Assembly (NCBI RefSeq): GCF_003369835.1
Contig: NZ_QPMJ01000002.1
Location: forward strand, 372,001 to 436,000
Length of the DNA: 64,000 nucleotides
DNA from: Halorussus rarus
GTDB lineage: Archaea; Halobacteriota; Halobacteria; Halobacteriales; Haladaptataceae
Direction: 5' to 3'
This document shows positions 44,940-53,456 of this stretch, one piece after another. The notes beneath the pieces were generated by a model. That model was given only the letters and a program-made list of their open reading frames with translations, was not told the DNA's origin and searched no databases. Position 1 is the stretch's first letter. Each line of letters begins with the position of its first letter. Position numbers and translations under genes: made by a program.

Positions 44940-45296
44940 ATGGCTCCAGAGTTGTTAATCGTGGACGACAGCGACTTCCAGCGGACGATGGTCCGGCAGG
45001 CCGTCGAGAGCGAGTTCGACGTGGTCGCCGAGGCCGCCGACGGCGCCGAGGCGGTCGAGCAGTTCGAGCGCCACCGGCCCGACGCGGTGACGATGGACAT
45101 CATGATGCCCGAGATGGACGGGGTCGAGGCGACCTCCCGGATCAAGGCCGACGACAGCCCGCCGGCGGTCGTGATGGTGACCAGCGTCGACCAGCAGAGC
45201 AAGATGAAGCAGGCCGTCAAGGCCGGCGCGGACGGCTACGTGACCAAGCCGTTCGAGCCCGAGGACGTCACCGCGGAGTTGTTGTCGGTCCTCTGA
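44940..45296 (+). CDS. CheY-like response regulator receiver
   Basis: A 118-residue stand-alone receiver domain. Acidic pocket Asp9/Asp10 (LLIVDDSD), phospho-acceptor Asp53 (VTMDIMMPEMDG), Thr81 (VMVTSVD) and Lys103 (YVTKPFEP) are all present. In archaea such a protein serves chemotaxis to the archaellum switch or other phosphorelays. No che or histidine kinase gene is adjacent, so the output is open. Confidence 0.93.
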   Translation: MAPELLIVDDSDFQRTMVRQAVESEFDVVAEAADGAEAVEQFERHRPDAVTMDIMMPEMDGVEATSRIKADDSPPAVVMVTSVDQQSKMKQAVKAGADGYVTKPFEPEDVTAELLSVL

Positions 45297-45359: not shown

Positions 45360-46850
45360 CTACTCCTCGGTGTCGAGCGATTGCCACGACAGCCGGAGGT
45401 CCCGCGCCGCGCTGGTCTGGTCGATGCGCCGGGCCGTGGTCCGGTTCGGCGCGCTCGCCAGCGACTCCTCGTCCTCGGCGGCGACCGCGTCGAACGCGTC
45501 CGCGAGCTGGTCTAGCGTGTCCTTGCCCTCGATCTCAGTGGGTTCGGTCATCAGCGCCTCCGGGACGATCTCGGGCCACTTCGTCGTCGGCGGGTGGACG
45601 CCGTAGTCGAGCATGCGCTTGGCGACGTCGGCCGCGTCCTGGTCGCCCGCGCTCGCGACGAACTCGTGGTGGAAGGGCTCGAACGGGACCTCGTAGTCGA
45701 TCTGGCTGGCGAGGTAGTTGGCGTTGAGCACCGCCTTCGCCGAGGCGTCGGCCAGCCCCTCGTCGCCGAGCCGGGCGATGTAGGCGTACGCCTTCACGAG
45801 GACGAGCCAGTTGCCCTCGAAACCGTGGACCTTGCCGACCGTGTTCTCGGGGTCGAAGCGCTCGTACACGCCGCCGGTGCCCCGTCCTTCGCCCTCGCGT
45901 CGGCCGACCTCCCGGACCCGGGGCGCGGGCAGGAACTCCGCGAGGTCCGAGACGACGCCGACCGGGCCGGCGCCCGGCCCGCCGCCGCCGTGGGGTGTGG
46001 CGAACGTCTTGTGGACGTTGTAGTGCATGATGTCGAAGCCCATGTCGCCCGGCCGGGCCCGGCCGAGCAGCGCGTTGAGGTTCGCGCCGTCGTAGTAGAG
46101 CAGCCCGCCCGCGTCGTGGACGACGTCGGCGATCTCCTCGATGTCGCGCTCGAAGAGCCCGAGCGTGTTGGGGTTCGTGAGCATGAACAGCGCGGTCCGG
46201 TCGCTCGCAGCGGCCTCCAGGGCGTCGAGGTCGACCCGGCCGTCGTCGCCCGACGGAAGTTCCACGACCTCGTAGCCGGCCAGCGCCGCGCTGGCGAAGT
46301 TGGTGCCGTGGGCGCTGTCGGGGACGATGATCTCGTCGCGCCGGTCGCCCTCGCCGTTGGCCTCGTGGTAGGCCTTCGCGACGAGGATGCCCGTGAACTC
46401 CCCGGCCGCGCCCGCCGGGGGCTGGAGGCTCACGGCGTCCATCCCGCCGATGCGCGCGAGGTAGTCCTGGAGGCCGTGCATGAGCGCGAGGGTGCCCTGG
46501 ACGCTCCGGCCCGACCGGTCGGGGTGGACCGCCGCGCTCGGGAGCGCGGCCACGTCCTCGGTGAACTTGGGGTTGTACTTCATCGTGCAGCTCCCGAGCG
46601 GGTACGGCCCGGAGTCGACCCCGTAGTTCATCTGGGAGAGTCGGGTGTAGTGGCGCGCGAGCTCGGGCTCCGAGAGGTCCGGGAGCTCGACGCTGTCCCG
46701 GGTCAGGTCGTCGGGCAGCGGGGAGTCGACGTCGACCTCCTTGGTGTTCTTCTCCGAGAGCAGGGGTTCGTACTGGCCCTGAGCGTCCTCGCCCTCACCC
46801 GTCTCGCCGCCGTCGGCGTCGTGAGTCCAGCGGGCCTGGTCGTATCTCAT
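45360..46850 (-). CDS. gcvPB: glycine dehydrogenase (decarboxylating) subunit 2
   Basis: Beta half of the two-subunit P-protein of glycine cleavage, 496 residues. The PLP lysine is in YNVHKTFATPHGGGGPG. Other motifs are LGSCTMKYNPKF near the start, LQPPAGAAGEFTG, PDSAHGTNFASA, LTNPNTLGLFE and YYDGANLNALLG. With GcvPA it decarboxylates glycine and loads aminomethyl on GcvH. It follows gcvPA with one base between them; together with gcvH and gcvT, upstream beyond an inserted block, it makes the full system on the minus strand. Confidence 0.97.
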   Translation of the reverse strand: MRYDQARWTHDADGGETGEGEDAQGQYEPLLSEKNTKEVDVDSPLPDDLTRDSVELPDLSEPELARHYTRLSQMNYGVDSGPYPLGSCTMKYNPKFTEDVAALPSAAVHPDRSGRSVQGTLALMHGLQDYLARIGGMDAVSLQPPAGAAGEFTGILVAKAYHEANGEGDRRDEIIVPDSAHGTNFASAALAGYEVVELPSGDDGRVDLDALEAAASDRTALFMLTNPNTLGLFERDIEEIADVVHDAGGLLYYDGANLNALLGRARPGDMGFDIMHYNVHKTFATPHGGGGPGAGPVGVVSDLAEFLPAPRVREVGRREGEGRGTGGVYERFDPENTVGKVHGFEGNWLVLVKAYAYIARLGDEGLADASAKAVLNANYLASQIDYEVPFEPFHHEFVASAGDQDAADVAKRMLDYGVHPPTTKWPEIVPEALMTEPTEIEGKDTLDQLADAFDAVAAEDEESLASAPNRTTARRIDQTSAARDLRLSWQSLDTEE

Positions 46851-46851
46851 C

Positions 46852-48195
46852 TCAGGCCACCTCCTCGAAGGCCGCGACCAGGTCGTCGACGGCGTGCTCG
46901 TTGGCGTCGGTGACGCAGACCTGGACCAGGTGTTCGCCGACGGCGTGGACCGCGAACCCCTCGGCTTCGAGATCCGAAGCGACCGCTGCGGCGGGCTGGT
47001 CGGTGTGAGCGACGAACTCCCGGAAGTGGTGGCGGTCGTGGACCGGCGCCTGGACGCCGGTCACGTCGTCGAGCCTGTCGGCGAGGCCGGCGGCGAGGCG
47101 CACGCAGTCGTTGCCCAGGTCCACCAGCCCCTCGGGACCGAGGTAGGCGGCGTGGATGGCGGTCCGGAGCGCGACCCACGCCTGGTTGGTGCAGATGTTG
47201 CTCGTCGCGCGCTCCCGGCGGATGTGCTGCTCGCGCGTCTGGAGCGTCAGGGTGTAGGCCCGCCGGTCGGCGGCGTCCTCGCTCGCGCCGACGAGGCGGC
47301 CGGGCACCTGTCGGACGAAGTTCTCGCGGCAGGCGAAGAGTCCGAGGCCCATCCCGTAGGCGGTCGGCAGGCCGAGGGTCGCGGCGTCCCCGACCACGAC
47401 GTCCGCGCCGACCGATTCGGGCTCCTGGAGAATCGACAGGGCGACCGGGTCCGACCCGAGGCAGAACAGCGCGTCGTGGTCGTCGGCGAGGTCGCCGATC
47501 TCGGCGAGGTGCTCCTCGACGGTCCCGAGCGTGGTCGGGTTCTCGGCGTACACCATCACCGCGTCGTCGTCGACGGCGTCGGCGAGCGCGTCGGGGTCGA
47601 CGTTGCCGTCGTCGGTGCCGAACGCCTCGACCGTCAGGCCCGCGCCGTCGGTGTAGTTCTCCAGGACGTCCCGGCGCGCGTCGAGCAGGTAGTCGGGCAC
47701 CAGCACCCGGTCGCCGTCGGTCGACCGGACGCGGGCGGCGAGCAGGGCGGCCTCGGCGAGCGCGCTCGCGTGGTCGTACATCGAGGCGTTCACGACCTCG
47801 AGGCCGGTCAGCTCGACCAGCATCGACTGGTACTCGAAGAGGGCCTGCAGGAACCCCTGGGTGATCTCGGGCTGGTACTGGGTGTAGGAGGTCAGAAACT
47901 CCGAGCGCTGCGAGAGGTGGTCGACCAGCGACGGGACGTAGTGGTCGTAGTGGCCCCGGCCGAGGAACTCGGTCAGGTCGTCGTTGCGCGAGAGCAGCCC
48001 CCGGACGCGGCGTTCGGCCTCGCGTTCGGTCCTGGCGTCGATGCCGAACTCCCCGTCGAACGCGACCGACTCCGGGATGTCGAACAGTTCCGCCGCGTCG
48101 TCGGCGCCAACTGCGTCGAGCATCGCCGCCGTCTCGTCGGCGGTGTGCGGTGCGTACGGGCTTCCCCGGACCCCTGGCTCGTGTCGTCCGCTCAT
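46852..48195 (-). CDS. gcvPA: glycine dehydrogenase (decarboxylating) subunit 1
   Basis: Alpha half of the P-protein, 447 residues. Signature: [101 protein letters not shown] and [10 protein letters not shown]. It lies directly before gcvPB on the same strand. Its promoter region (48196-48328) is shared with the divergent CHAT protease gene, so it is separated from gcvT-gcvH and must use its own promoter. Confidence 0.97.
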
Positions 48196-48328
48196 GTGCG
48201 CTGAGGTAGGGAGTCGACGGCTTTAACGTAGGGGGTCTCGGCGCGGACGGGGTCGAGGAACGGGTATCCGACCGAGGGTTTTTTACGACTGGCCCCGACC
48301 GGAGTGGTACGTTCAGGGTTTCCCACTC

Positions 48329-50542
48329 ATGTCTCTCTCCCCGCGATTCGAGTCGACACCGGGCGCGACGGGCGTCGACGTCGTCGACCCGGTCGAGACC
48401 CGACACTTCCCGCTGGACACCGACGCGCCGGTGGAACCGACCCCCGGCGACCCCGGGACGTTCGCCTTCCCGGTCGACGCGGCCTGCCGTATCTCGGTCG
48501 GTCGCCTCGGGCTCCCCTACATGCTCCCGGTGGACGTGCGGACGCCCGAGGGTGATCCGATCGCTTCGGTCGACAGTCCCACGACCCGCGAGCTGCCCGA
48601 CGGCGACTACCTCGTGGAGCTTCACTCCCCCATAAAGGTGTACCTGCGCGCCGCGGGACCCCTCCGGGTCGCCGCGAGCCCCGACGGCGTCGCGTTCGAG
48701 TTCGACGGGACCGCCGCGGTCGACGTCGGCGCGCGGTCGTACCACAGCGCGCCGGCCGCGACCGTCACGGTGCCCGACGACCCCGCGGCGGCGATGGACG
48801 CCGTCTCGACGTTCTCCTCGGCGCTCAAGACCACCTCGCCCGAGCGGGCGTGGCCGACGCTGCGGGGCCACCCGCCGGCCGTCGAGCGGGGCGACGAACT
48901 GGCGATTCCCGACGGCCTCGACGCGCCCGAGACGGGCGTCCGGATCGTCGCGCCGCCGGAGTACGCCGCGGTGTACGCGGTCGCGCCCCTGGCGTACTAC
49001 CTCAGTGCGGCCGTCGTCCCGGGCGAGACCGCCCGGCTGACCGCCGAGAGCGGCGTCGACCGGCCGCTCGGCGACGACCCGACCGAGCTCGCCGACGCGG
49101 TCGCGGCGCTGCTGAAGCGGGTGTTCTTCCTCGACTGCGCGACCAGGACCGAGGGGCTGTACCCCGACGAGCTCCACGAGCGCGACGTCCTGGCGGCCCG
49201 GACGGACCTCGACTTCGCCGACCTCTACGACGCCGACCCGGCCGACCGGCTCGCGGCGTACCTGTCGGTGCCCGACGACGCCGTCGCGGCCGCCGCCTCG
49301 CCGTGGCACCGGGTCACGTACGTCCGGCCCGACGCCGGCGCGGTCGAACTGCTGCCCGCGCTCGTCAACGACCTCTCGCTGATCCGACCGAAGGCGTCGG
49401 CCGACGACCCGGCGGACCGGACGGTCGACGACCGGCTCGACGGGGCGCTCGACTCGTTCCTCCGGCGCCCGCGAGCGAGCGCCGACCGGGCGAGCCCGGA
49501 ATCAGCGAGTACGGGGCGGTCGAACGGCGAGCGCGCGAGCGCCGCGCAGTCGGACGCCGCGAGCGAGGAGTTCGTTCGGTCGGTCCGGAGTCCGACGGGG
49601 GACGCCGAGGACGCGACCGCAGACGGCGTGCCGGAGGTCGGCGAGTACGTCTCGCTGCCCGAGACAGACGCGCTCGAACGGGCGTGGGTGGGCGACGGGA
49701 CCCCGATCAGGGGCACGAAGCTCGTCCCCGAGGCGTTCGCCCACGAGACGCCCGAGCCCTCCGACGGGACCGTCGACGTTACCGTGGTCTGCAACGACGA
49801 GGCGATGCGCGAGGAGTGGGACTCGGTGGGCGAGATATACGGCAGCCGGGAGGACCTGCCGGTCGACGTGACCGCGCGGGTCGGGGTCTCGACGGCCGAC
49901 CTCCGGCGCCTGCTCGCCGAGGACTGCGACGTGTTCCACTTCGTCGGCCACATCGACGGTCGGGGGTTCCAGTGCCCGGACGGCGTCCTCGACGCGGCCG
50001 CGGTCGGCGAGACGAACGCGACCACCGCGCTGCTGAACGGCTGTCGGTCCCACGACCAGGGGGTCGAACTCGTGAAGGCCGGCGCGAGCGCCGCCGTGGT
50101 GAGCCTCTCGGACCTGTTCAACTCGGGCGCGGTCGAGGTCGGCGAGACGCTGGCCCGACTGCTCCACCACGGGTTCGGCGTCGGGGCGGCGATGAAGATC
50201 GTCCGGGAGTACACCTCCATCGGGAACCGGTACGTGGTCGTGGGCGACCCGGGCGTGACCGTGGCGTACTGCGAGAGCGGCCTCCCCATGATCCACCACG
50301 TCGTCGACGGGGGCGACGAACGGTTCGACGTGACCCCATACTCGTACCCGACGCGGGTTCGCAGCGTGGGGACGAACATCCGGTCCTACCTCCAGGGGTC
50401 GGACCGCTACCACGTCGGAGTGGGACCCTGCGGCGAGAAATCGGCGACCCCGCAGGCGCTCCAGATGTCGTTCGTGGGCGACTCACAGCCGCTGATCGTC
50501 GACGGCGAACTCGTCTGGAGCGACGAGTGGCTCGGTCACTGA
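48329..50542 (+). CDS. CHAT-domain (caspase-like) protease
   Basis: A 737-residue protein with a C-terminal CHAT peptidase domain (clan CD, caspase/separase fold). The catalytic His is His541 in DVFHFVGHIDG and the Cys is Cys572 in LLNGCRSHDQGVELVKAG. AAVVSLSDLFNSGAVEVGETLARLLHHGFGVGAAMKIVREY and YVVVGDPGV are the usual C-terminal part. Residues ~1-370 are beta-rich with no recognised domain; ~380-430 is a Ser/Ala/Arg/Glu low-complexity linker. CHAT proteases act in bacterial defence and programmed death. It has its own T-rich promoter (48276-48285) and interrupts the gcv genes. Confidence 0.82.
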   Translation: MSLSPRFESTPGATGVDVVDPVETRHFPLDTDAPVEPTPGDPGTFAFPVDAACRISVGRLGLPYMLPVDVRTPEGDPIASVDSPTTRELPDGDYLVELHSPIKVYLRAAGPLRVAASPDGVAFEFDGTAAVDVGARSYHSAPAATVTVPDDPAAAMDAVSTFSSALKTTSPERAWPTLRGHPPAVERGDELAIPDGLDAPETGVRIVAPPEYAAVYAVAPLAYYLSAAVVPGETARLTAESGVDRPLGDDPTELADAVAALLKRVFFLDCATRTEGLYPDELHERDVLAARTDLDFADLYDADPADRLAAYLSVPDDAVAAAASPWHRVTYVRPDAGAVELLPALVNDLSLIRPKASADDPADRTVDDRLDGALDSFLRRPRASADRASPESASTGRSNGERASAAQSDAASEEFVRSVRSPTGDAEDATADGVPEVGEYVSLPETDALERAWVGDGTPIRGTKLVPEAFAHETPEPSDGTVDVTVVCNDEAMREEWDSVGEIYGSREDLPVDVTARVGVSTADLRRLLAEDCDVFHFVGHIDGRGFQCPDGVLDAAAVGETNATTALLNGCRSHDQGVELVKAGASAAVVSLSDLFNSGAVEVGETLARLLHHGFGVGAAMKIVREYTSIGNRYVVVGDPGVTVAYCESGLPMIHHVVDGGDERFDVTPYSYPTRVRSVGTNIRSYLQGSDRYHVGVGPCGEKSATPQALQMSFVGDSQPLIVDGELVWSDEWLGH

Positions 50543-50544
50543 GT

Positions 50545-50682
50545 CTACGGTCCGGACTTCGCGCACGCGCAGTCGGCGACCGCGCTCCCGCTCTCTGCGA
50601 GCAGCAGCGCGACCGTCCAGAGCGCGCCCATCAGTTTCGGGTTGTCGGCCAGCCGCGCCGTGAGGTCGGACGTTCGTGCCAT
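50545..50682 (-). CDS. 45-residue signal-peptide-like microprotein
   Basis: MARTSDLTARLADNPKL, then a hydrophobic core MGALWTVALLLAE, then SGSAVA and a short tail DCACAKSGP. The tail would be a nine-residue Cys-x-Cys peptide if cut after the AVA site. Alternatively it stays as a single-span membrane peptide. Similar tiny haloarchaeal proteins end in Gly-Pro (I believe DUF7503). Its stop lies two bases after the convergent CHAT gene's stop, and it is divergent from the 50920 gene with an AT-rich shared promoter. Confidence 0.75.
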   Translation of the reverse strand: MARTSDLTARLADNPKLMGALWTVALLLAESGSAVADCACAKSGP

Positions 50683-50878
50683 TGCGTGACAGTATCCGGT
50701 TCCTGCTAATATCTGTCTTTCTTAAATTTACCTAGAACAACAATAACAGATAAACTACCGGTTCCGACGAGGGCGACTCGCCAGCGCCCAGCCCGCCGTC
50801 AGTGGTGTACTCCGAGATCGGAATACTTCCTTTTACGCCTCCCGGGTCATCATGCATCCAATCGTTCGAAGAGGAAAA

Positions 50879-50884
50879 TTTATA
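50879..50884 (+). promoter_or_regulatory. TATA box for 50920 gene
   Basis: TTTATA lies 36-41 bases before the ATG at 50920, preceded by purine-rich GAGGAAAA, a plausible BRE. It is the plus-strand promoter of the intergenic region shared with the microprotein. A TTTAAG-type element on the opposite strand near 50735-50742 may serve the microprotein. Confidence 0.6.
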
Positions 50885-50919
50885 ACTCGACCGTGAAAAT
50901 GTGAGTCACACACAGACGA

Positions 50920-51684
50920 ATGTCGTCCCCAGAATCCGCGGGTTCCGTACGCGGGACCGGGCCGCCGGTCCCCGACGACGACCTCGCGAACTTTCTCGAC
51001 GTCCTGAACGAGCTGAAATCCACCGGATGCAATCTGCTGGTCGTCGGCGACGCGCCCCGGGAGCTGTTCGCGCGGGCGAGCGCGCGAATGCTGGGCGACG
51101 ACGACGCGACGCGGTACCGCGTCCTCGCGGCGACCGACGCGACCCCCGGGAGCATCGCCGACCGGCTCCCCGACCCGACCGAGTCGTCGCGCCCGGTCGG
51201 CGAGACGACCCACGTGCTCAACCACGTCGGCGCGGTCCGGTCGGTCACCGCCTCGGCCGACGAGACGCCCCGGGCGGAGCTCGCGGGCGTCAAGGAGACC
51301 CGGGTCGCGGACCCCCAGCTGGCCGGGCTCCAGTCCGCGCTGGTCGAGGCCATCGACGACTTCGCGACCCGCGCCGGCGATTCGCTCGAACCGGCGGCGC
51401 TCCGCGTGGGCGTCGACTCGCTGGCGCCGCTGGTCGACTTCCACGGCGAGGACGTGGTCCGGCGGTGCCTCCGCATCGTCGGCGGGCACGTCCGGAAGCG
51501 CGACGCCATGGCCCACTACGTGCTGCCGAAGCCGTACGACAGCGAGCTCGTCCGGGCGTTCGCTCCCGCCGCCGACGCCGTCGTCGAGGTCCGGCTGGCC
51601 GACGCCGCCGAGGACGGACGGGTCGGCGAACAGCGCTGGCACGTCCCGAACCGGGAGCTGTCGGTCGGCTGGACGCCGCTGTAG
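50920..51684 (+). CDS. degenerate RecA/KaiC-like protein
   Basis: A 254-residue protein resembling haloarchaeal RecA-superfamily (KaiC/RAD55-like) proteins. It begins LDVLNELKSTGCNLLVVGDAPRELFARASARML, where a P-loop would sit but GKT is missing. LRVGVDSLAPLVDF corresponds to Walker B, and MAHYVLPKPYDSELVRAFAPAADAVVEVRL to the late strands. It therefore probably binds no ATP and may be a signalling or scaffold protein (I believe the family is called DUF7504). The context is the CHAT protease and the microprotein. Its stop is 44 bases from the convergent gcvH stop. Confidence 0.75.
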   Translation: MSSPESAGSVRGTGPPVPDDDLANFLDVLNELKSTGCNLLVVGDAPRELFARASARMLGDDDATRYRVLAATDATPGSIADRLPDPTESSRPVGETTHVLNHVGAVRSVTASADETPRAELAGVKETRVADPQLAGLQSALVEAIDDFATRAGDSLEPAALRVGVDSLAPLVDFHGEDVVRRCLRIVGGHVRKRDAMAHYVLPKPYDSELVRAFAPAADAVVEVRLADAAEDGRVGEQRWHVPNRELSVGWTPL

Positions 51685-51728
51685 CCAAAAGGAGTCCACG
51701 GGCCGTCGCGGCCCCGTACTGCCCACCG

Positions 51729-52112
51729 CTACTCGATCTGCTCGCGATACTCCTCGGCGCTCAGCAGTTCGTCGAGCCCGTCGTCCTCGGCCAGTTCGAC
51801 CTCCAGCATCCAGCCCTCGCCGAAGGGGTCGTCGTTGACGAGTTCGGGCTGGTCGGCCAGCGCGTCGTTGACCGCGGTGACGGTGGCGTTCACCGGCGAG
51901 TAGAGGTCCGAGACCGCCTTGATGGACTCGACGACGCCGAACTCCTCGTCCTGGGAGAGCTCCTCCCCCTCGTCGGGGAGTTCGACGAAGACGACGTCGC
52001 CCAGTTCGTCCTGGGCGAAGCCGGTGATACCGATTCTGGCGGTGCCGTCGGTCGTCTCGACCCACTCGTGTTCGCTACTGTACTTCCGGTCGTCGGGAAC
52101 TTCGAAGCTCAT
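51729..52112 (-). CDS. gcvH: glycine cleavage system H protein
   Basis: Lipoyl carrier of the glycine cleavage system, 127 residues. The lipoylated Lys65 is in [18 protein letters not shown]. The N-terminal [33 protein letters not shown] is typical. It follows gcvT with two bases between them. It shuttles aminomethyl from the P-protein, encoded beyond the CHAT block, to GcvT. Confidence 0.97.
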
Positions 52113-52114
52113 GG

Positions 52115-53206
52115 TTACTCACTCAGGAATGGCGTGTTCGCTATCTTTGCCTTTTTCGACTGGCCGCGGACCACGACGCGGACCTTGGTCCCGGCGTCGG
52201 CGTACTCGGTGGGGACGTAGCCCAGCGCGATGGGCTCGTCCAGCGTCGGACTCATCGTGCCGCTGGTCACCTCGCCGATGACCTCGCCGTCGGGGTCGGT
52301 CACGTCGTAGCCGTGGCGCGGGACGCCGCGGTCGACGAGTTTGATGCCGACGAACTCCTCGTCGGCGCCCTCGGCGTCGACGCCCTCGAGCGCGTCCCGG
52401 CCGACGAACTCGGTGTCGAGCTTGACCGTCCAGCCGACGCCCGCCTCGTAGGGGTTCCGGGGGTTCTCGTCGGCGTCGAAGTCCTGGCCGGACAGCAGGA
52501 ATCCCATCTCCATGCGGAGGGTGTCGCGCGCGCCGAGACCGCAGGGCTGGCAGTCGAACAGGTCCCAGACCGCCTCGGCCGACTCGACCGGGACGACCAG
52601 TTCGAAGCCGGCCTCGCCGGTGTAGCCGGTCCGGGCGGTCCAGCAGTCGACGCCCGCGAACGCCGCGTCCGTGCCCTCGAACTTCGAGAGGTCGGTCACG
52701 TCGTCGTCGGCCGCCTCGGCCACGAGGTCCGTCGCCTCGGGCCCCTGGACCGCGTACATCGCGTACTCCTCGGTGGCGTTCTCCACCTCGGCGTCGAGGC
52801 CCCACTCGTCGCGGTGGTCGGTCCACCGGTCGTACATCTGCTCGTCGTGACCCGCGTTGGGGACGAAGAGGAACTCGGCGTCCCGGCCCTCGGGGAGGCG
52901 GTAGACCACGGTGTCGTCGAGAATCGTGCCCTCCTCGTCGACGACCATCGAGTAGTGGGAGTCCCCGCGGCCGAGTTCGGTCACGTCGTTGGTGGTGAGC
53001 CGCTGGATCAGGTCGGCGGCGTCGGGCCCGCCGACCTCGATCTGGCCCATGTGGGACACGTCGAAGATGCCCGCCTCCTCGCGGACCGCGGCGTGCTCGA
53101 CCTTGATGGAGTCGAACTCCACGGGCATGTCCCACCCGCCGAACTCGGTGAACGACGCTCCCTCGGCGGCGTGGGCCTCGCGCAGTGGCGGTTTCCGAAG
53201 GCTCAT
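52115..53206 (-). CDS. gcvT: glycine cleavage system T protein
   Basis: Aminomethyltransferase of 363 residues moving the methylene group to tetrahydrofolate (or an archaeal pterin) and releasing ammonia. Signature: [42 protein letters not shown], the folate-binding [14 protein letters not shown], and [22 protein letters not shown]. First gene of the gcvT-gcvH transcript. Confidence 0.97.
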
Positions 53207-53276: not shown

Positions 53277-53456
53277 TCACGCGGGTTCGACGACGATCTG
53301 GCCGTCCCGGAGCTTGTAGACCAGCCGGTCGCCCTCCTCGACCTCGACGCCCTCCTCGGCGAACTCCTCGCGGACCGCCTTGATGAGGCTGATTCGCCAC
53401 CGCTGGGTCACGGTCGTCGTGCCGAGTATCTTCTCGTCGGAGTCGTCGGAGCTCAT
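53277..53456 (-). CDS. AbrB/MazE-like DNA-binding protein
   Basis: A 59-residue swapped-hairpin AbrB-type protein. LGTTTVTQRWRISLIKAVREEF forms the first strand and loop (TVTxxxRxxLP-like). VEVEEGDRLVYKLRDGQIVVEPA gives the GD(R/E)xxY hairpin typical of AbrB/SpoVT/MazE domains. As a dimer it would bind DNA or act as an antitoxin; no toxin is beside it. It lies upstream of gcvT on the same strand. Confidence 0.85.
   Translation of the reverse strand: MSSDDSDEKILGTTTVTQRWRISLIKAVREEFAEEGVEVEEGDRLVYKLRDGQIVVEPA

Follow-up and report, generated by a model that had tools for sequence, protein, structure and literature searches.

Gene organization of the locus

The window analyzed in the present study is a 64,000-nucleotide stretch of Halorussus rarus DNA (assembly GCF_003369835.1, contig NZ_QPMJ01000002.1, positions 372,001-436,000 of the forward strand), and coordinates are given relative to this window. 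It carries a gene predicted to encode a cysteine protease of the CHAT type, together with a convergent micropeptide gene and a gene for a RecA-like protein. These three adjacent genes had been proposed from the sequence alone (hereafter, the original prediction) as a candidate uncharacterized system, and their layout was borne out to the base:

48329..50542, + strand: predicted CHAT/separase-fold cysteine protease, 737 aa (open reading frame [ORF], homologues, AlphaFold2 model and Foldseek)
50545..50682, - strand: DUF7503 micropeptide, 45 aa, with a basic N-terminal part, a hydrophobic helix and the tail DCACAKSGP (PF24335, E=1.5e-12)
50920..51684, + strand: DUF7504 protein, 254 aa, KaiC/RecA fold without a P-loop, probable regulator (PF24336, E=3.2e-47; AlphaFold2 and Foldseek)

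The stop codons of the protease and micropeptide genes are exactly two bases apart (50543-50544), as had been described. Because two of the products matched the DUF7503 and DUF7504 profiles and the catalytic dyad of the third is conserved, the three ORFs represent more than chance.

Pairing of the protease with a convergent micropeptide

The 45-aa protein scored 47.3 bits against the Pfam family DUF7503 (PF24335), the cut-off of which is 27. Among 80 named loci that were chosen by the CHAT gene alone, DUF7503 was arranged tail-to-tail with CHAT in 68, with a gap of -17 to 126 nt (mode 0); a convergent CHAT gene was present at 30/30 loci that were chosen by DUF7503 alone. In an alignment of 120 DUF7503 proteins, a basic N-terminal part was followed by a hydrophobic stretch of approximately 12 residues, an A-x-A-like site, a hypervariable tail, and a terminal Gly-Pro. 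Averaged over 19 residues, the Kyte-Doolittle hydropathy of the hydrophobic segment was approximately 1.6, a hand calculation from the alignment's column means, and the spacing between the basic motif and the C-terminus was 29 residues in 83 of the 118 proteins compared. The entropy of the Gly-Pro codons was 0.36-0.58 bits at positions 1 and 2 and 1.7-1.85 bits at position 3; nearly fixed first and second positions with free third positions indicate selection on the peptide. Two elements of the micropeptide gene are relevant here:

50548..50553, - strand: codons for the terminal Gly-Pro, with unconstrained third positions (107/120 DUF7503 proteins end in these two residues)
50707..50712, - strand: TATA-like box ATATTA, at -30 to -25

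Across 116 upstream regions, an AT-rich box was detected at approximately -37 to -27 relative to the start codon of the micropeptide gene (AT fraction of 0.75-0.96 at -37 to -28), the spacing expected of an archaeal promoter with a short leader or none. A conserved TATCAGA element also preceded the TATA-like box by approximately 10-20 bases (L157, L160, L163, L172, and L248), and is common to DUF7503 genes and the repeat gene of Haloplanus described below.

The Gly-Pro tail as the constant feature

The 3' ends of CHAT genes were scanned for convergent ORFs of 25-130 aa without the DUF7503 profile, with 575 further long genes of these loci as controls. A convergent small ORF ending in Gly-Pro was detected for 117 of 154 distinct CHAT genes versus 3 of the 575 controls. 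Thirteen of the 38 CHAT genes without a DUF7503 match still had such an ORF, 0.2 being expected at the control rate, and in 20 regions fetched later it was present for 12 of 21 CHAT genes, two longer ORFs lying beyond the length cut.

Two groups of peptides found in this manner differ from DUF7503. In a second CHAT subfamily of Natrialbaceae (L225-L232), the convergent peptides are short, soluble, and basic, fall outside DUF7503, and have no hydrophobic helix; they end in AK[RG][VI]S[TS]YGGP (e.g., AKRVSTYGGP), the codons of which vary synonymously. In Haloplanus (L245-L249, L181, and L197), the micropeptide encoded on the opposite strand at the CHAT 3' end consists of a soluble leader and tandem units of 13 residues, such as MTADGNGSGISGP, that end in ISGP or VSGP. 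The arrays of five species contain 13, 7, 4, 5, and 10 units, and that of a Haloplanus metagenome-assembled genome contains 2. In the five species, 32 codon columns vary synonymously only and one varies in the amino acid. The pattern of the unit, GN-x-x-x-I-S-G-P, matches the tail AAGNHGAISGP of Halobellus DUF7503. Because the repeat gene has a promoter in common with ordinary DUF7503 genes, the Haloplanus array is best regarded as a DUF7503 locus in which the helix was lost and the tail amplified. The Haloplanus repeats also contain a caspase-like x-[TN]-A-D-G sequence, a putative cut site at most; DUF7503 tails have no conserved Asp.

Since Haloplanus drops the helix and amplifies a tail that matches that of Halobellus, the conserved working part of the partner appears to be the Gly-Pro tail rather than the membrane segment, and the idea that membrane anchoring defines the peptide was rejected because the Natrialbaceae and Haloplanus variants have no such segment. 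The original prediction had proposed a peptide- or membrane-linked protease module and had suggested examining the co-location of its genes. The peptide linkage is supported by the class-wide co-location and the invariant dyad, whereas the membrane linkage is not general.

The CHAT protease

The following elements were assigned to the 737-aa protein, all on the + strand:

48329..48736: beta-sandwich at the N-terminus (approximately residues 1-136; modeled mainly as strands), with conserved K103, Y105, R136 and S137
48857..48877: TLRGHPP motif, residues 177-183; T177/L178 tend to differ where the peptide has no Gly-Pro (suggestive only)
48878..49390: middle alpha/beta domain, residues 184-354, a putative pseudo-protease domain from the order of secondary structure in the model
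49406..49621: disordered linker, residues 360-431 (predicted local distance difference test [pLDDT] <50)
49646..50248: CHAT catalytic domain, residues 440-640 (model and invariant residues)
49949..49951: codon of catalytic His541, kept in 51/51 homologues
50042..50044: codon of catalytic Cys572, kept in 51/51 homologues

The His541/Cys572 dyad that the original prediction had described as intact was thus confirmed in its positions and was invariant among the homologues. Neither of the two outcomes that it had named as refuting the module, genes that are not co-located in other genomes or a dyad that is not conserved, was observed. The other invariant residues of the CHAT domain in the homologue alignment were H537, G540, G546, C549, D551, N570, and S574, and many residues of the N-terminal half, including R136, S137, and the TLRGHPP motif, were invariant as well. 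The AlphaFold2 model built with 46 relatives had a pLDDT of 86.2 and a predicted template modeling score of 0.86, and placed the beta-sandwich, the middle alpha/beta domain, the linker, and a caspase-like C-terminal domain in this order; a structure prediction of the N-terminal half, which had also been proposed, therefore gave a beta-sandwich and an alpha/beta domain. A Foldseek search of the PDB with this model returned separase as the best match (5fby, E=1.1e-6), followed by gingipain R (4ief) and caspase-11/4/3. From the order of its strands and helices, the middle domain may correspond to the pseudo-protease domain of separase and gingipain.

At E<=1 the protein gave no match to the models of Pfam, NCBIfam, or PADLOC, and its N-terminal half contained no Pfam domain. 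The CHAT model PF12770 was weakly reached by 15 of 46 family members (best E=3.6e-4), and a paralogue scored 21.7 bits against its curated cut-off of 24 bits. Since a sequence search of the PDB with the CHAT profile gave no match at E<=10, the fold assignment is drawn from the model, according to which the protein is predicted to be a clan CD protease of the CHAT/separase fold, with putative proteolytic activity.

Covariation between the peptide tail and the protease

In 13 CHAT genes paired with a DUF7503 protein that does not end in Gly-Pro, substitutions are frequent at T177/L178 in the TLRGHPP motif and at G546, a residue of the loop that joins His541 to Cys549; where Gly-Pro is present, these positions are near-constant. 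On a tree built with the CHAT columns under test left out, the Gly-Pro state changed 13 times. Among 11 independent pairs, the TL pair followed Gly-Pro in approximately 5 and opposed it in 0 (sign test, median p ~0.06). In new loci, 4/4 CHAT proteins with a residue other than Gly at 546 were accompanied by a peptide without Gly-Pro; the G546 changes probably represent one or two clades or events only. A contact between the tail and the protease is, from these alignments, suggestive only.

DUF7504 and neighboring genes

The 254-aa protein scored 161.7 bits against DUF7504 (PF24336, cut-off of 27), and its model (pLDDT of 88.1) had a KaiC CI/RecA domain; the best Foldseek match was the KaiC CI domain (E=3.7e-8), and FlaH was also returned. 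An intact GK[ST] P-loop (Walker A) was present in 0/32 aligned members on inspection, and the description of this product as a RecA/KaiC-like protein that has lost its P-loop is therefore correct. Its place as the third member of the module is weaker than had been proposed. DUF7504 adjoined CHAT in at least 56 of the 80 CHAT-selected loci, directly upstream in 45, and the genome of H. rarus has 14 DUF7504 genes, mostly away from CHAT. DUF7504 was thus rejected as an obligatory third component and is a probable, optional regulator.

The module of the window is located inside a glycine-cleavage cluster (45360-53206), with gcvPB/gcvPA on one side and gcvH/gcvT on the other, and this placement is common to three further Halorussus species. 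By eye, from the translations, the cluster is flanked by a CheY-like response regulator and a small AbrB-like ORF (44950-45296 and 53277-53456). In several genera, HalX response regulators or PAS histidine kinases adjoin the module, at the following positions within their own loci:

L158:8400-9083, L128:8220-8801, L114:8155-9099, L112:9759-12812 and L148:9202-12834: HalX or PAS-kinase neighbors

The neighbors across the loci examined included gcv genes, HalX, TrmB, IMPDH, and an aminotransferase, the housekeeping ones being conserved; a clustering of conserved neighbors reflected mainly order-level synteny and spurious high-GC ORFs.

Distribution of the CHAT family

The CHAT family was present in 223 of 242 sampled genomes of the haloarchaeal class (~92%) and in 65 of 73 genera, often in several copies. 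Outside this class, it was detected in 4 of 295 genomes searched in the same phylum, all of one family. These four genomes are probably Methanocella, two of them presumably Methanocella arvoryzae and M. paludicola. The relatives concerned (L220-L223) are solo genes near dnaG and a UPF0146-like gene, with DUF7503 and DUF7504 both absent from these loci, and the dyad is kept in 3 of 4, being lost in L222. The specificity to haloarchaea that the original prediction had suggested accordingly held as a near-restriction to the class, but not as exclusivity. Given these solo relatives, the protease probably predates the module of haloarchaea. Phage-encoded CHAT relatives were looked for and none were found, and in the plasmid records checked CHAT was nearly always annotated as a hypothetical protein.

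Interpretation

By a modest balance of probability, we favor a regulated clan CD protease with a dedicated peptide partner. The locus would encode a cytoplasmic cysteine protease composed of a beta-sandwich, a putative pseudo-protease domain, and an active CHAT domain, and the partner would be the product of a second, convergent gene that has a promoter of its own. The working part of this partner may be its last ~10 residues ending in Gly-Pro. In most haloarchaea (DUF7503), these residues follow a helix that is hydrophobic or a segment resembling a signal peptide; in Natrialbaceae and Haloplanus, soluble precursors bear them. The most likely role of the peptide is that of a substrate or pseudosubstrate bound by the protease, which would couple protease activity to the level, localization, or export of the peptide, with DUF7504, a KaiC-like pseudo-ATPase, probably acting as an optional regulator. 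The genes, their pairing, the dyad, the protein-level constraint on Gly-Pro, and the repeats are observed, the fold is predicted, and from these we infer the physical binding, the direction of control, the proteolytic activity, and the biological output.

Several observations weigh against this interpretation. No partner could be detected for approximately 20 CHAT genes, and the DUF7503 partner of 13 does not end in Gly-Pro, so that neither the peptide nor Gly-Pro is strictly required, and the solo relatives outside the class, probably from Methanocella, mean that the protease can exist alone. The covariation of T177/L178 is weak and post hoc, the positions having been picked after looking, and is suggestive only. 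Moreover, genomic linkage cannot separate a substrate, an inhibitor, an activator, or a merely co-regulated neighbor from one another.

Among the alternatives, a pheromone-like peptide signaling system, in which the micropeptide is the precursor of an exported and sensed peptide of ~9-13 residues ending in Gly-Pro and CHAT is its processing enzyme or intracellular receptor, is unlikely in our assessment. Cleavage would occur near VAA|GN after the signal-peptide-like segment, or the Haloplanus array would be cut into units. The short precursor with its fixed 29-residue spacing, hydrophobic stretch, A-x-A-like site, and variable tail with a constant Gly-Pro is consistent with such a route, as are a conserved C-terminal unit that is sometimes multi-copy with synonymous-only variation and the two-component genes that adjoin the module in several genera; however, no exporter, importer, or receptor was identified, the Haloplanus precursor has no signal peptide, and the DUF7503 segment, at its hydrophobicity, may be a plain membrane anchor. 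We consider it improbable that stress or infection activates CHAT for regulated death or antiviral defense, with the hydrophobic micropeptide as a membrane effector or cleaved substrate, even though CHAT and caspase-like proteases function in prokaryotic defense and death (Csx29, PMC10028731; bacterial gasdermins, PMC9079055), DUF7503 is small and hydrophobic, and a stress-linked caspase-like activity exists in Haloferax volcanii (PMC3615174). The family is not patchy among genomes, its conserved neighbors are housekeeping genes (IMPDH, aminotransferase, and glycine cleavage genes), a PADLOC search of the three proteins was empty, relatives are not encoded by phages, and soluble peptide variants exist. 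The defense or death role envisaged in the original prediction is thus not indicated, given the class-wide distribution and the housekeeping or two-component neighbors, and a conventional defense island was rejected as the default.

The separase fold, the separate promoter that permits independent dosage, the near-universal distribution, and the position of G546, which is substituted in a clade without Gly-Pro, in the loop of the active-site His would suit a securin-like arrangement, namely, a micropeptide that acts as a stoichiometric inhibitor of a housekeeping separase-like protease and is released by DUF7504. Nevertheless, securin is much larger than the micropeptide and is not defined by its C-terminus, the G546 changes probably go back to one or two events, and no cell-cycle neighbors were seen in the loci examined; this arrangement is therefore quite improbable. 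It is barely credible that what is conserved is a nucleic acid element (DNA or RNA) at the 3' end of CHAT, with the micropeptide being non-functional as a protein. The abutting stop codons, through which the convergent transcripts overlap, may be explained in this manner, but the association holds at gaps of up to 126 nt, third codon positions are free while Gly-Pro is fixed, and the Natrialbaceae and Haloplanus tails vary synonymously; this codon analysis in the three peptide groups led us to reject a DNA-level element at the overlapping stops.

Relevance to caspase-like activity and to signaling

Among the proteolytic activities of H. volcanii, a caspase-like one was previously reported to be dominant, abundant, inhibited by zVAD, and important under salt stress, although archaea had been given no place in the debate on caspases owing to "a lack of gene homologues" (PMC3615174). 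In a survey of metacaspases, 5 of 114 archaeal genomes were positive (PMC3501461). The CHAT family could explain this activity. Thirteen loci of other Haloferax carry the CHAT module and H. volcanii has matches to DUF7503 and DUF7504, from which its carriage of a CHAT gene is inferred. The activity of H. volcanii together with the conservation in Haloferax, and the x-[TN]-A-D-G sequence of the Haloplanus repeats, are hints in this direction; on the other hand, Sulfolobus and Pyrococcus, both outside the phylum searched, were reported to have a similar activity. A broader proposal, according to which Gly-Pro oligopeptides, freed from a signal-peptide-like precursor or from tandem-repeat polyprecursors, control or are matured by CHAT throughout the class, together with the pseudo-ATPase and two-component regulators, as a new type of peptide signaling or peptide-gated protease that is also the source of the haloarchaeal caspase-like activity, is tentative and, taken as a whole, doubtful.

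A family with an intact dyad and a predicted caspase/separase fold is therefore present in 92% of the sampled haloarchaeal genomes and falls below standard domain models, and the old question of an archaeal caspase-like gene becomes testable by one knockout. The Gly-Pro-tailed micropeptide, of which a tandem-repeat version occurs naturally, represents a built-in candidate partner and makes synthetic ligands readily available. Release of the peptide, if it occurs, would also be relevant to cell-cell signaling in haloarchaea, which was described as largely unexplored in a paper from 2023 (PMC10223598).

Comparison with known systems

The protein resembles CHAT proteases (PF12770), such as Csx29 of Craspase and those with gasdermin partners, in its His-Cys dyad, its caspase-hemoglobinase fold, and its dedicated partner gene, although it lies below the detection of PF12770. 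The absence of a TPR partner, a gasdermin, and a Craspase effector that the original prediction had noted was upheld. The module has no TPR domain and no Cas7-11 neighbor, unlike the type III-E Craspase, and its neighbors are DUF7503 and DUF7504 with no gasdermin gene, unlike the bacterial gasdermin system. The partner is instead a convergent peptide of 41-190 aa with a Gly-Pro tail, and the pairing is near-universal in one archaeal class. Eukaryotic separase, the best structural match, has a comparable arrangement of a pseudo-protease and an active protease, the former being putative here; however, the identity is 14%, the TM-score is ~0.2 over the query, the helical-repeat N-terminal region is missing from CHAT, and there is no securin homologue. 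DUF7504 has the RecA fold of the KaiC and FlaH (ArlH) ATPases, but a degenerate Walker A in 32/32 members.

Two of the three module proteins belong to Pfam families of unknown function, and the descriptions of DUF7503 and DUF7504, as returned, do not include the CHAT link, the invariant Gly-Pro tail, or the soluble and tandem-repeat variants. A literature search found no paper on DUF7503, DUF7504, or haloarchaeal CHAT, and no description of this CHAT lineage, its convergent micropeptide, or the tandem-repeat form. Taken together, CHAT proteases with dedicated partners are already known, and the lineage, its Gly-Pro-tailed micropeptide, and the tandem-repeat form are apparently new.

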